Part shown: piece after piece, positions 57,322 through 63,527 of the stretch
Position numbering within the stretch: the stretch's first letter is position 1
How the letters are laid out: every line of letters begins with the position of its first letter
Notes under the pieces: model-generated
What the model was told of the DNA's origin: nothing
Seen by the model: the letters and a program-made list of their open reading frames with translations, nothing else
Databases searched by the model: none
Position numbers and translations under genes: made by a program
Assembly: GCF_013522725.1 (NCBI RefSeq)
Contig: NZ_JAAMRF010000002.1
Location: 372,001-436,000 of the forward strand
Length of the DNA: 64,000 nucleotides
Direction: 5' to 3'
Source of the DNA: Stutzerimonas azotifigens
Lineage (GTDB): Bacteria > Pseudomonadota > Gammaproteobacteria > Pseudomonadales > Pseudomonadaceae

Positions 57322-57341
57322 TCCGGAAAGTCGCGCCAACG

Positions 57342-57367
57342 AAACCCCGGTTTTCCCGGGGTTTTTT
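57342..57367 (+). terminator. Rho-independent terminator after acsA
   Basis: AAACCCCGG and CCGGGGTTT pair across TTTTC and continue into T residues, 20 bp after the acsA stop. Confidence 0.9.
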
Positions 57368-57597
57368 ATGTCTGTCGAAAGGCATAAAACCGTCTTGCCG
57401 GCGGTTCGCGTCCCAGCCTCGGGACAGGTGGGGCGTGCGCCAGCTGTGCTCTACCGCCGTTATTCGCACAGGTATGGCGCGAGATCGAGATTTATCAAGA
57501 AGCGGGGGAAATCGCGGTTCCCGATGGTGTCAATAGCGAAACGGCTGCGCGCTGGCTGCCATGCTTTGGGGCGCCGGTGGGAACGCTGGTCAGTAAG
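57368..57597. other. Non-coding spacer between acsA and the Anbu operon
   Basis: An open frame crosses this stretch in one phase, but its product is Arg/Cys-rich with no homologous look and no ribosome site. Base composition is lower in GC than the flanking genes. The functional elements I can support lie at its downstream end: an NtrC-like dyad and a sigma-54 promoter. Confidence 0.5.
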
Positions 57598-57614
57598 TGC
57601 TCCACTGTGGTGCG
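57598..57614 (+). promoter_or_regulatory. NtrC-like enhancer site
   Basis: TGCTCC-ACTGT-GGTGCG differs from the NtrC consensus TGCACC-N5-GGTGCA at two positions and keeps the exact spacing. It is centred about 85 bp before the predicted transcript start, within the range for sigma-54 activators. Only one good site was found. Confidence 0.5.
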
Positions 57615-57664
57615 TCACGGCAGAGGGGTTTCGCCAGGTAATTGATCCTGAAGGAAATTTCTTC

Positions 57665-57679
57665 TGGCATGCCGCTTGC
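57665..57679 (+). promoter_or_regulatory. Sigma-54 (RpoN) promoter of the Anbu operon
   Basis: TGGCATG-CCGC-TTGC fits the consensus TGGCACG-N4-TTGC with one mismatch; the invariant GG (57666-57667) and GC (57678-57679) have the required spacing. The transcript would start near 57691, leaving a 25-base leader with GGGAG before the ATG at 57716. Confidence 0.78.
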
Positions 57680-57715
57680 GAAGCATCAATGTGTTGCGAC
57701 AGGCGGGAGCGCTGA

Positions 57716-59125
57716 ATGACGCGGGTCTTTTACGATGAGATGTACGACGCCGACGGCCATTGCCGCCCGCATTATCACGCGTTCGCTCAATGGCTGGCCA
57801 ACACCCCGGCGGACGAGCTGGCCAAGCGTCGGCAGGAGGCCGATCTGCTGTTCCATCGGGCCGGCATCACCTTCACGCTGTATGGCGACGAGCAGGGCAC
57901 CGAGCGGCTGATTCCCTTCGACACCATTCCGCGCAGCATTCCTGCCAGCGAGTGGCGAACGGTGGAGAGGGGCTGCATTCAGCGCGTCCAGGCCCTGAAC
58001 CTGTTTCTTGAAGATCTCTACCACGGCCAGCGCATCCTCAAGGAGGGTGTGGTTCCCATCGAGCAGGTGCTGACCAACGACGGGTATCAGATGGCGATGC
58101 AGGGGCTAGACCTGCACCGAGGCCTGTATGCGCACATTGCCGGTGTCGATCTGGTGCGTGACGGCGACGGCCGCTACTTCGTGCTCGAGGACAACCTGCG
58201 CACCCCGAGCGGGGTGAGCTACATGCTCGAAGACCGCAAGATGATGATGCGGCTGTTTCCCGAGCTCTTCGCGGCGCAGCGCATCGCGCCGGTCAACCAC
58301 TATCCGAACCTGTTGCTCACCACGCTCAAGGAGTCCAGCCCGCTGGACAACCCCAGTGTGGCGGTACTGACGCCGGGCCGTTTCAACAGTGCCTATTTCG
58401 AGCATGCCTTCCTGGCGCGGGAGATGGGCGTGGAGCTGGTCGAGGGTGCGGATCTTTTCGTTCGCGACGAGCACGTCTACATGCGCACCACTTCCGGGCC
58501 GCAGCGCGTCGATGTGCTTTATCGCCGGCTCGACGATGCCTTTCTCGATCCACTGGCCTTCAACCCCGAGTCGACGCTGGGGGTGCCGGGTCTGCTGGCG
58601 GCCTATCGTGCCGGCAATCTGGTGCTGGCCAATGCCATCGGCACCGGCGTGGCTGACGACAAGTCGATCTACCCTTATGTCAACGACATGATCCGCTTCT
58701 ATCTGAGCGAGGAGCCGATCCTGAATAACGTGCCCACCTGGCAATGCCACAAACCTGATGAGCTGTCCCATGTGCTGGCGAACCTGCCGGAGCTGGTGGT
58801 CAAGGAAACCCAAGGCTCCGGCGGTTACGGCATGCTCGTCGGGCCGGCATCCACCAGCGCGCAGATCGAGGCGTTTCGCGAGCGGCTCAAGGCCAATCCG
58901 GCCGCCTATATCGCGCAGCCGACGCTGAGCCTGTCCACGTGCCCGACGTTCGTCGAAAGCGGCATCGCGCCGCGTCATATCGACCTGCGGCCATTCGTGC
59001 TCTCCGGGCGTGAAACCCGCCTGGTACCCGGCGGGCTGACGCGCGTGGCACTGCGCGACGGTTCGCTGGTGGTCAACTCGTCCCAAGGGGGCGGTACCAA
59101 GGACACCTGGGTGGTGGAGGATTGA
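57716..59125 (+). CDS. Circularly permuted ATP-grasp type 2 protein (Anbu operon)
   Basis: 469 residues. Contains FVLEDNLRTPSGVSYMLEDRKM (in two parts), DVLYRRLDDAFLDPL, VVKETQGSGGYGMLVGP and RHIDLRPFVL, the nucleotide- and metal-binding segments of the circularly permuted ATP-grasp family. ATP-grasp enzymes join carboxylates to amines, so a peptide or amino-acid ligase is predicted; the product is not known. First gene of a four-gene operon, 2 bp before the alpha-E gene, preceded by a sigma-54 promoter. Confidence 0.85.
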   Translation: MTRVFYDEMYDADGHCRPHYHAFAQWLANTPADELAKRRQEADLLFHRAGITFTLYGDEQGTERLIPFDTIPRSIPASEWRTVERGCIQRVQALNLFLEDLYHGQRILKEGVVPIEQVLTNDGYQMAMQGLDLHRGLYAHIAGVDLVRDGDGRYFVLEDNLRTPSGVSYMLEDRKMMMRLFPELFAAQRIAPVNHYPNLLLTTLKESSPLDNPSVAVLTPGRFNSAYFEHAFLAREMGVELVEGADLFVRDEHVYMRTTSGPQRVDVLYRRLDDAFLDPLAFNPESTLGVPGLLAAYRAGNLVLANAIGTGVADDKSIYPYVNDMIRFYLSEEPILNNVPTWQCHKPDELSHVLANLPELVVKETQGSGGYGMLVGPASTSAQIEAFRERLKANPAAYIAQPTLSLSTCPTFVESGIAPRHIDLRPFVLSGRETRLVPGGLTRVALRDGSLVVNSSQGGGTKDTWVVED

Positions 59126-59127
59126 CC

Positions 59128-60078
59128 ATGCTTTCCAGAACCGCCTCCGATCTGTACTGGATGTCGCGCTACCTCGAACGGGCCGAGAACCTGGCGCGCA
59201 TGCTCGAGGTGAGCTATTCGCTGTCGCTGATGCCGCAGAAGGGCCTGGGCGACGGCCTCGATGAACTGGCGATGCCGTTGCTGATCACCGGTACGCTCGA
59301 CGATTACCTGCTGCGTCACGGCCCGCTGGACGCGAGAAAACTGCTGCATCATTTCGCTTTCGATCCGGACAATTCCGGCAGCATCTATAACTGTTTCCAG
59401 GCCGCGCGGATCAACGCGCATGCGGTACGCGGGCGCATCACCACCGACATGTGGGAGAACATCAACGCGACCTGGCTGGAAATGCGCATCATCGCGACCC
59501 AGGACCTCAGCCGCTACGGCATCAGCCGCTTCTGCGAGTGGGTCAAGGAACGTTCGCACATCTTTCGCGGCGCCACCTACGGCACCATCATGCGCAGCGA
59601 CGCCTACCGCTTCATCCGCCTGGGCACCTTCATCGAGCGCGCCGACAACACCTTGCGTCTGCTCGATGCGCGCTACGAGTTGCTGGGAGACGATATCGAC
59701 GACATCGACGACGGTTCGGCCCGCGCCTATTACCAATGGAGCGCGCTACTGCGTGCGGTGTCCTCGTTCGAGGCCTTCGCCGAGATCTACCGGGGCTCGC
59801 CCAAGGTGCGCAAGGTGGCCGAGATGCTGCTGCTGCGTCCGGACGTACCCCGCTCGGTACGTGCCTGCACCGATGAACTGAACCAGATGCTGGCCAGTCT
59901 GCCTGGTATCAACGGTCGGCCTGCCCAGCGTATGGCGGCGGAGCTCGAAGCCCGCCTGCGCTATACCGGCGTCGATGAAATCCTCAAGGCGGGGCTGCAC
60001 GACTGGTTGACCGAGTGCATCCAGGAGGTCAACCGGCTCGGTCAGGCCATCCACAGCTCGTACCTGGAGGTCGCATGA
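59128..60078 (+). CDS. Alpha-E domain protein (Anbu operon)
   Basis: 316 residues from MLSRTASDLYWMSRYLERAENLARM; a TTG two codons earlier is less likely. The protein is almost entirely helical, with the recurrent Asp/Glu/Arg pattern (SRYLERAENLARML, FIRLGTFIERADNTLRLLDAR) that names the alpha-E family. It always travels with the permuted ATP-grasp protein and may be a substrate-carrying or scaffold partner; no activity is established. Overlaps the transglutaminase gene by ATGA. Confidence 0.83.
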   Translation: MLSRTASDLYWMSRYLERAENLARMLEVSYSLSLMPQKGLGDGLDELAMPLLITGTLDDYLLRHGPLDARKLLHHFAFDPDNSGSIYNCFQAARINAHAVRGRITTDMWENINATWLEMRIIATQDLSRYGISRFCEWVKERSHIFRGATYGTIMRSDAYRFIRLGTFIERADNTLRLLDARYELLGDDIDDIDDGSARAYYQWSALLRAVSSFEAFAEIYRGSPKVRKVAEMLLLRPDVPRSVRACTDELNQMLASLPGINGRPAQRMAAELEARLRYTGVDEILKAGLHDWLTECIQEVNRLGQAIHSSYLEVA

Positions 60079-60869
60079 AACTCTCCATCAGCCATGACAC
60101 CAGCTATCACTACGACGATACGGTACGTACCAGTATTCAGTATCTGCGGCTCACGCCCCAGGAGAGCGAGCGCCAGCACGTCCTCAACTGGCGGCTCGAC
60201 CTGCCTCGGCCGGCGCGCAGTCAGATCGACCCCTACGGCAATATCCTCCATGTCCTGTCGCTGGAGGACCCGCACGAGGAAATCCTCATCCATGCCAGCG
60301 GCCAGGTCGAGATCGACGAGCGCTGCGAAGCCGAGCACGACACGCAGTCGCCGTTCCCGTTTCTGCGCATGACGCGGCTCACCCACCCCGATGAGGCGCT
60401 TAGAGAGCTCGCCGGGCGCAGCGTCGGAGAGCGGCGCGACCGCGCCGGATTGGCCGACCTGATGCAGGCCTTGGGTGAGCACATGCTCTACAGCCCAGGC
60501 TCGACCGGGGTGGAGAGCACTGCCGCCCAGGCGTTCGCGGCCCGCGCAGGCGTATGCCAGGACCACACCCATGCTTTCCTGGCCTGCGCGCGCAGCCTTG
60601 GTATTCCGGCGCGCTATGTATCCGGCTACCTGCTGACCGATGACCAGACCCACCTGGCCAGTCATGCCTGGGCCGAGGCCTGGCTGAATGGAGCCTGGTA
60701 CAGCTTCGATGTGACTAACCAACTGGAACGCCCGGAGCGTCATCTCAAACTTGCCGTCGGTCTGGATTACCTCGATGCCTGTCCGGTTCGTGGAAGCCGT
60801 CGCGGTGGTGGCATCGAAACCATGCACGCCCGGGTATTTGTCTCGCCAATCACACAGGCCCAGCAGTAA
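60075..60869 (+). CDS. Transglutaminase-like cysteine peptidase (Anbu operon)
   Basis: 264 residues from MKLSISHDTSYHYDD, start in ATGA overlap with the alpha-E stop. An N-terminal beta region (about 1-90) precedes the transglutaminase core with Cys161 (AGVCQDHTHAFLA), His197 (SHAWAEAWL) and Asp212 (WYSFDVTN), a complete Cys-His-Asp triad. It could hydrolyse or form isopeptide/amide bonds in a peptide made by the ATP-grasp enzyme; direction unknown. No signal peptide, so cytoplasmic. Confidence 0.87.
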   Translation: MKLSISHDTSYHYDDTVRTSIQYLRLTPQESERQHVLNWRLDLPRPARSQIDPYGNILHVLSLEDPHEEILIHASGQVEIDERCEAEHDTQSPFPFLRMTRLTHPDEALRELAGRSVGERRDRAGLADLMQALGEHMLYSPGSTGVESTAAQAFAARAGVCQDHTHAFLACARSLGIPARYVSGYLLTDDQTHLASHAWAEAWLNGAWYSFDVTNQLERPERHLKLAVGLDYLDACPVRGSRRGGGIETMHARVFVSPITQAQQ

Positions 60870-60951
60870 AGTGGCGCCAGCGGCCGTCCAGGTCTGCCGA
60901 TAGAAGCAGACCGGGCGACGCCGTGTTTCGTCCTGACAGTCCGGATCCGCC

Positions 60952-61686
60952 ATGACTTATTGCGTTGCCATGAACCTGAGCGAGGGCTTGGTGTTCGTTT
61001 CCGACTCCCGTACCAATGCCGGAGTCGACCACATCGCCACCTTCCGCAAACTTTATATCTTCGGTGTTCCGGGAGAGCGGCTGATCGTATTGCAAGCGGC
61101 GGGCAATCTCGCCACGTCGCAGTCGGTCATCAGTCTTCTACGCCAGCGGCTCAAAGGCAAGGGGCCTCACCTGTGCAGTGTCGACAGCCTGTTCGAAGCG
61201 GCGCAACTGGTCGGCAAGACGATGCGTGAAGTGGTCTCGCGCGACGCCGAGCCCACCATGTCGGCCGGCGTGGACCTGACCTGCTCGTTTCTGCTGGGCG
61301 GACAGATCGGCGAAGAGCCACCAGCGCTGTTCAACCTGTACCCGCAGGGCAACTTCATCGCGGCGACACCCGATACGCCGTATTTCCAGATCGGTGAAAG
61401 CAAATACGGCAAGCCGATTCTCGACCGCGCGCTGACTTACCAGACGCCGCTGGATCACGCCTTGCGCTGTGCGCTGATTTCGTTCGACTCGACCATTCGC
61501 AGCAACCTGTCGGTCGCCTTGCCGCTGGACGTGCTGGTCTACCGAAGCGGCAGCCTGGAAGTCCCGAAAGGCTACCGCGTGCAGGAAGGGGATCCGTATT
61601 TCGAGGAAATTCGCGACTACTGGGGAGGCGGATTGCGTCGCCTGCTCGGCGAGCTGAGCTCGCCGCCGGACGGTTACTGGAACTGA
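60952..61686 (+). CDS. Anbu (proteasome-type N-terminal nucleophile peptidase)
   Basis: 244 residues beginning MTYCVAMNLSEGLVFVSDSR. After Met removal Thr2 would be the nucleophile, and SDSRTNAGVDHIATFRKLY carries the conserved Asp and Lys of proteasome beta/HslV folds. The protein matches Anbu, the bacterial proteasome-like family. Fourth gene of the operon, 82 bp after the transglutaminase. No unfoldase gene accompanies it, unlike HslV with HslU. Peptidase activity and natural substrate of Anbu remain debated. Confidence 0.88.
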   Translation: MTYCVAMNLSEGLVFVSDSRTNAGVDHIATFRKLYIFGVPGERLIVLQAAGNLATSQSVISLLRQRLKGKGPHLCSVDSLFEAAQLVGKTMREVVSRDAEPTMSAGVDLTCSFLLGGQIGEEPPALFNLYPQGNFIAATPDTPYFQIGESKYGKPILDRALTYQTPLDHALRCALISFDSTIRSNLSVALPLDVLVYRSGSLEVPKGYRVQEGDPYFEEIRDYWGGGLRRLLGELSSPPDGYWN

Positions 61687-61708
61687 CCGAGCCGGAGGCG
61701 AGAGAGGC

Positions 61709-63088: not shown

Positions 63089-63184
63089 TCAACTGAAAAT
63101 CCGGGTGAGGTTGGGGAGAATCAGCACAACGGCTGTAGCGAGAAGAATCAGTGTTGCCTGGCGAAGTTTTTTTTGTTTAAACAT
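63089..63184 (-). CDS. Possible 31-residue single-helix membrane protein
   Basis: MFKQKKLRQATLILLATAVV is followed by LILPNLTRIFS: a basic N-terminus, one strong hydrophobic helix and a short polar tail, the pattern of small membrane proteins. An AAAGG-like site lies about ten bases upstream of the ATG. Too short for similarity to be judged by eye; it may be chance. Separate from the MscS gene by 258 bp in which I see nothing else. Confidence 0.35.
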   Translation of the reverse strand: MFKQKKLRQATLILLATAVVLILPNLTRIFS

Positions 63185-63527
63185 GGGGCGGCCTTTTATT
63201 TTTCTGGACGCCTGGCGGCGAGTCGCTCTGCAGGCGTGCTGTTGTAAAGTTTCGTCCCGGCCTTGAGCCGGCGGCACGTTTTGCTTGAATAAGTGACCGA
63301 TAAATTCCGTCATTCATGCATCCGTTGGGCGGCTCGCCCAGTCATGACCTGACCGTCCGCATTGCCGCGATCGTCGCAATTCCCGTGCCAGAGGGCTTGG
63401 ACGGGGTGTCCACATCATCTCTACCGTTCGTCGTTTCTCGGTTACTGCATTCGGTGGCGGCGGCGGGGCACCTTAGGCGTCGTGGGAGGGTCCACTTTAT
63501 AAATCGACCCCAGTTTTGGAGGTAGTC
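63185..63527. other. Non-coding region upstream of the secreted protein gene
   Basis: No supportable gene on either strand. TTATAA (63497-63502) is a possible -10 for the gene that follows, without a convincing -35. GGAGG at 63519-63523 is its ribosome site. Confidence 0.4.

Follow-up and report, generated by a model that had tools for sequence, protein, structure and literature searches.

The Anbu operon has been described as a set of four genes encoding an ATP-grasp protein, an alpha-E protein, a transglutaminase (TGase) fold protein and the proteasome-like protein Anbu (PMC5666114, PMC6376114). Two studies found no peptidase or amidase activity for Anbu (PMC5666114, PMC6376114), the Thr1 residue of Anbu is reported to react with epoxomicin (PMC5666114), and the ATP-grasp protein of Yersinia bercovieri is reported to have ATPase activity (PMC6376114). 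Here we analyze a copy of this operon in Stutzerimonas azotifigens, located in a 64,000-nucleotide (nt) stretch of contig NZ_JAAMRF010000002.1 (the window), and compare it with its relatives in the phylum Pseudomonadota. The comparison suggests that ATP-grasp and alpha-E are the fixed core of the operon and that Anbu is an optional add-on.

The four genes lie adjacent to one another on the forward strand, in the order given above, at 57716-61686. The first (57716..59125) is predicted to encode a circularly permuted (CP) type-2 ATP-grasp ligase of 469 amino acids (Pfam CP_ATPgrasp_2, E 4.4e-163), and the second (59128..60078) an all-helical alpha-E protein (Pfam Alpha-E, E 2.3e-94). The third (60075..60869) encodes a papain-like cysteine enzyme of the TGase fold, which matches the structure 3isr and the Pfam families Bact_transglu_N (E 6.5e-23) and Transglut_core (E 1.1e-20). 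The fourth (60952..61686) encodes Anbu, a proteasome-like N-terminal nucleophile (Ntn) hydrolase in which Thr2 would be exposed once the initial Met is removed; it scored 19 bits against the Pfam proteasome model, under the cut-off of 22.4 bits, and matched the solved Anbu structure 5lox with E 1.3e-102. In the list of open reading frames (ORFs) alpha-E runs from a TTG (59122-60078), and we placed its start at the conserved Met, the ATG at 59128, which leaves 2 nt after the ATP-grasp stop. The TGase start was taken as an ATG inside a longer listed frame, giving an overlap of 4 nt with alpha-E, and the largest gap in the cassette, 82 nt, separates TGase from Anbu. The ORFs, the Pfam matches and the match to 5lox thus bear out the four-gene cassette proposed in an earlier interpretation made from the letters of the window alone (the sequence-only reading), and the cassette is the published four-gene Anbu operon (PMC5666114, PMC6376114). 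The genome holds one copy of alpha-E and gave no match to DUF2126, and the PADLOC defence models found none among the six window proteins submitted.

Of 299 genomes sampled from the phylum, 171 have alpha-E (PF04168), that of S. azotifigens among them. The surroundings of alpha-E were surveyed at 179 loci, made up of 98 fetched loci and the window (99) and 80 further named loci that include alpha-, beta- and gammaproteobacteria; the fetched loci were centred on alpha-E matches, for the most part those with the best scores, a choice that favours the window type. The 99 loci held 119 alpha-E frames, of which 96 were unfused and 23 fused, and each of the 119 had an ATP-grasp either in the same frame or upstream on its own strand, the one distant case being L125, where the ATP-grasp is 778 nt away. 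ATP-grasp was likewise present in 76 of the 80 named loci, with three others (L244, L246 and L254) cut at the contig start. Near the 96 unfused alpha-E frames, contig ends included, a short same-strand TGase was found within 4.5 kb in 62 and Anbu in 51. Across genomes, 113 of the 115 with Anbu also have alpha-E, as do all 91 with DUF2126, and 58 of the 171 alpha-E genomes gave no Anbu match (E 1e-10). Anbu and DUF2126 are accessory to alpha-E. Of the alpha-E genomes, 57 have both, 56 have Anbu alone, 34 have DUF2126 alone and 24 have neither, and the two are distributed independently (p 0.33, Fisher test with kinship ignored). Of 17 Anbu loci fetched away from alpha-E, 15 had no member of the other three families within the stretch; in L273 Anbu directly follows a TGase frame, and L277 contains a large TGase. 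Two genomes of a single genus (G149, locus L262, and G301, locus L263) carry Anbu without alpha-E or CP-ATP-grasp, and in one locus (L252:1954-3708) alpha-E and TGase are naturally fused in a 584-amino-acid frame, the only such fusion found.

The residues expected of active enzymes are conserved almost throughout the unfused proteins. In an alignment of 170 unfused and 28 fused ATP-grasp rows (198 in all; the homologue rows in this and the following counts include the window protein twice), E158, N160, K316 and K363 were kept in 169, 169, 169 and 170 of the 170 unfused rows, the sole deviant being L072, where the row is a fragment of a gene that is broken or split and the residues are those of the fused type. 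In the window protein itself E158-x-N160, K316, K363 and the Gly loop are all intact. The TGase triad C161/H197/D212 was kept in 131, 132 and 132 of 135 short rows and in all 35 large rows at each position, and T2, D18 and K33 of Anbu in 87 of 87, so that both the intact triad and the Thr2 pointed out in the sequence-only reading hold across their families. Alpha-E has a charged core (R16, E19, R20, R26, R103, E172, R173 and R244, numbered from the TTG at 59122), each residue of which was kept in 172-177 of 177 unfused rows and in 26-29 of 30 fused rows.

The ATP-grasp protein matched 3n6x over its full length (sequence match E 5.4e-206, profile E 1.4e-248). Modelling of the homologous domain of a fused protein, together with 3n6x, indicates a fold shared with glutathione, glutathionylspermidine and peptidylpolyamine synthetases. 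None of the glutathionylspermidine or peptidylpolyamine family models recognized the protein, for which Pfam gave only CP_ATPgrasp_1/2 and NCBIfam nothing, and a profile search of PDB sequences returned only 3n6x and a ribosomal protein at chance level. Fold class and residues together support an intact ATP-dependent C-N ligase, as the proposal that the ATP-grasp protein ligates had anticipated.

Upstream of the cassette is a sigma-54 -24/-12 element, TGGCATGCCGCTTGC (57665..57679, forward strand), a perfect match that ends 36 nt before the ATP-grasp ATG; the scoring weights used with the consensus were set by hand. An NtrC-like palindrome, TGCTCCACTGTGGTGCG (57598..57614, forward strand), fits 10 of 12 positions and has its centre 59 bp before the -24 element. 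The sigma-54 element is one of 10 perfect matches in the 4.83 Mb genome, but its weight lies in its conservation, because in the window matches with at most one mismatch occur as often as chance predicts (4 against 4.03). All eight cassette-bearing congeners have an element scoring 21/23 whose start lies 47 or 51 nt upstream of the ATG, and of the 168 loci with a usable ATP-grasp upstream (among them L072, from a fused-type cluster) 86 scored at least 21/23, compared with 0 on the antisense strand, 0 in reversed sequence and a mean of 1.25 in shuffled sequence. With near-identical upstreams dropped, 154 were kept, of which 73 were positive (antisense 0, reversed 0, shuffled 1.7). For the NtrC count 98 non-redundant sigma-54-positive cassettes were used, and sites matching at least 10 of 12 positions preceded 31 of them (shuffles 1.9 ± 1.4, reversed 5). 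In seven loci, the window included, the palindrome centre lies 59-60 bp from the -24 element; elsewhere this distance ranges from 16 to 141. Among the nine loci of the genus, L055 alone joins the window in matching 10 of 12 positions at the place of the window palindrome, seven of the eight congeners being weaker, and the pattern at two mismatches is weak alone, being common genome-wide (600 matches per strand, control 225).

Published expression data bear on the same regulators. A related cluster in Burkholderia cenocepacia encoding DUF404/407, DUF403, TGase and large-TGase proteins fell by log2 8.2, 9.4, 9.4 and 6.0, respectively, in an ntrC mutant, and the cluster was named a common target of NtrC and sigma-54 (PMC5491218). 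In Pseudomonas putida PP_2686-2688 rose 11-15-fold in the wild type under nitrogen limitation, and control by NtrB/NtrC was called likely (PMC7801951). In marine metagenomes the Pfam families of the cassette also show a correlation with domains of urea metabolism (PMC3597751). The sigma-54 element and the published NtrC data point to nitrogen limitation, which the sequence-only reading had chosen as the condition for comparing mutants, and, judged from the promoter sequences, NtrC and sigma-54 probably turn the operon on. Nitrogen regulation of this operon type was already known, and the addition here is the breadth of the promoter evidence. We take COG3484 to be Anbu. A proteasome-type protease of that group has been placed in predicted sigma-54 regulons (PMC12316311).

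Given this combination of ligase, partner and promoter, we tentatively favour, at slightly less than even confidence, a nitrogen-limitation module for amide ligation, composed of an ATP-grasp/alpha-E ligase, a thiol amidase or transferase and an optional Anbu hydrolase. Nitrogen limitation, through NtrC with sigma-54, would switch the cassette on. By analogy with the glutathione, glutathionylspermidine and peptidylpolyamine synthetases, the ATP-grasp protein would activate a carboxylate as an acyl phosphate and join it to an amine, and alpha-E, as obligate partner, would probably bind or present one of the substrates through its Arg/Glu core. In the glutathionylspermidine synthetase/amidase, the cysteine amidase half cleaves the bond formed by the synthetase. 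The TGase-fold enzyme may by the same analogy work against the ligase as a thiol amidase or acyl-transferase, cleaving or moving the bond, a direction that we infer from that likeness, and Anbu may add an optional third layer, trimming a peptide-like product. The earlier sequence of ligate, edit and degrade is thus upheld as regards an intact ligase, a thiol triad and an Ntn-hydrolase. Degradation by Anbu is not supported, given the alpha-E genomes without an Anbu match and the two studies that found no peptidase or amidase activity (PMC5666114, PMC6376114).

Several observations weigh against this module. No substrate or product is known for the operon, and no gene in the surveyed cassette neighbourhoods names a substrate. 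A TGase is missing within 4.5 kb of some ATP-grasp/alpha-E pairs, and in L245 (Pseudomonas mediterranea, one of the 80 named loci) a second, broken alpha-E, which appears as two overlapping frames, stands beside a TGase without ATP-grasp. Of the 168 upstreams, 82 score below 21/23 for sigma-54, and therefore other controls exist. In P. putida PP_2686-2688 were still 14-20-fold up in an rpoN mutant, which argues against strict sigma-54 dependence there; urtABCD, assigned to NtrB/NtrC, likewise keep their induction in that mutant (PMC7801951). PP_2685 (Anbu) rose only 1.12-fold in the nitrogen-limited wild type (PMC7801951), and 11.1-fold in another study (PMC3325844). A published pull-down of the Y. 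bercovieri proteins with Anbu as sole bait gave no specific interaction among the operon proteins (PMC6376114).

The alternative that survives best is a narrower, small-molecule form of the same explanation, in which a small peptide or polyamine conjugate is made and later hydrolysed for its nitrogen. It fits the fold class, that of small-peptide and polyamine ligases, and the nitrogen-limitation setting. The surveyed neighbourhoods held no constant partner genes, and therefore the substrates would probably be common metabolites. A gene that we take to be the spermidine synthase gene speE also lies near the cassette in 11 of the 179 loci, either just upstream or within about 2 kb (L056, L057, L058, L062, L183-L187, L205 and L211), and in L056 frames further upstream resemble what are presumably methionine-salvage genes. 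However, the speE link is confined to one family, the Pseudomonadaceae, no transporter is constantly linked in the same neighbourhoods, and a new amide would cost ATP and nitrogen under nitrogen stress unless the amines were scavenged. We regard this form as possible, with the balance somewhat against it.

The model of the sequence-only reading, which is also discussed in the literature, is protein tagging, with the ATP-grasp and TGase proteins attaching a peptide or amino-acid tag and Anbu destroying the tagged protein or removing the tag. It would account for the near-constant company of Anbu and alpha-E (113 of 115 genomes), for the reactivity of Thr1 with epoxomicin (PMC5666114) and for the presence of two amide-forming folds in one operon. 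On the other hand, Anbu is unmatched in a third of the alpha-E genomes (58 of 171), the two studies cited above found no peptidase activity, and the four genes of the window, with a largest gap of 82 nt, leave no room for a tag gene. The operon also has no unfoldase: the remark that no HslU-like unfoldase is present holds for the cassette, which contains no dedicated AAA+ unfoldase of the HslVU or proteasome type, but not for the genome, which has a full hslU on contig C29. The substrate may, as that reading deduced, be small or unfolded. We consider tagging unlikely. Bulk nitrogen recycling, in which Anbu would degrade damaged proteins and TGase would deamidate glutamine to ammonia with the ligase as a side branch, is compatible with nitrogen-limited expression and is named as a possibility in PMC6376114, but the invariant unit is ATP-grasp/alpha-E and Anbu is optional, and we think it very improbable.

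The fused relatives of ATP-grasp and alpha-E offer a further view of the core. In 28 fused ATP-grasps N160 was kept in none, E158 in one, K316 in none and K363 in 14, so that the Mg/ATP E-x-N dyad is lost in all 28 (examples are L065, L066, L067, L215, L234, L243 and L248). The charged core residues are kept in the fused alpha-E rows, and therefore the alpha-E core outlasts loss of the ATP-grasp catalytic residues; on this evidence the fused protein is a predicted pseudo-ligase that retains the alpha-E core. For 26 of the 28 the fetched stretch also held an unfused alpha-E, a proportion biased upwards because the loci were mostly picked by their unfused copy. The large protein of these clusters is a TGase joined to DUF2126 (one protein scanned). 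A limited look at titles and the starts of abstracts, which did not cover the 2009 proposal of Iyer and colleagues, found no description of the dead fused ATP-grasp, and we make no claim of priority. A more speculative extension, to which we give a rather low probability, is that the hub is alpha-E rather than Anbu, with alpha-E as the subunit that presents substrates to interchangeable amide ligases of nitrogen stress. The live ATP-grasp would serve in the window type, the dead fused ATP-grasp would act as a scaffold beside an active DUF2126 amidoligase in the companion cluster, and TGase and Anbu would be alternative hydrolases of the same novel amide-linked conjugate.

The cassette appears to have been inserted with its promoter region. 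In seven of ten chosen congeners, all without the cassette, acs and mscS adjoin, and in the window they are 4387 nt apart, which delimits an inferred inserted segment at 57322..61708 (forward strand) holding the four genes and the promoter region. The other three have the cassette elsewhere and no mscS near acs, and in the eight of 36 congeners that carry the cassette it is beside neither acs nor mscS within the fetched stretches. Gain of the genes with their promoter between acs and mscS is the simplest reading, and repeated loss of the cassette may be the alternative. A plasmid collection held 114 records with similar DNA, including Sinorhizobium (63), Azospirillum (12), Caballeronia (10) and Klebsiella (3). 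Two further features of the window may be recorded. The TGase-Anbu gap (60870-60951) contains a GGTCTGC/GCAGACC hairpin, and the stretch around the gap is predicted to fold more stably than every one of 200 shuffles (z -2.6, from the window sequence alone); we set this beside the dataset in which the first three genes are induced and Anbu hardly at all. On the minus strand (63376-63390) lies another perfect sigma-54 pattern, which precedes a 74-amino-acid minus-strand ORF (63089-63313) by 63 nt and the long mscS frame by 300 nt.

Alpha-E is present in more than half of the sampled genomes, and our results narrow the search for the product of its operon to nitrogen limitation and to ATP-grasp with alpha-E rather than Anbu. 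They argue against Anbu as the centre of the operon, which moves to the ATP-grasp/alpha-E pair. Amines and glutathione-like acids would be the first candidates to consider, with the dead-ATP-grasp clusters as comparison.

Among known systems, 3n6x, the full-length match of the ATP-grasp protein, is Methylobacillus Mfla_0391, a 'putative glutathionylspermidine synthase' described by a structure entry only. Glutathionylspermidine synthetase/amidase and the peptidylpolyamine synthetases YgiC/YjfC share about 10% identity with the ATP-grasp protein and no common Pfam match, and the cassette differs further from them in carrying the TGase fold as a separate gene and in adding alpha-E and Anbu. The DUF2126 cluster, which comprises TGase-DUF2126, fused ATP-grasp/alpha-E and TGase, has the alpha-E and TGase families in common with the window and often adjoins a window-type copy; it differs in its dead ATP-grasp dyad and its putative amidoligase DUF2126, and is absent from this genome. 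The Anbu operons of Y. bercovieri and Pseudomonas aeruginosa and PP_2685-2688 of P. putida share all four families and the catalytic residues with the window, and the gene order is the one given in PMC6376114. The window copy is no different in kind from the published operons, and is set apart by its chromosomal site between acs and mscS.

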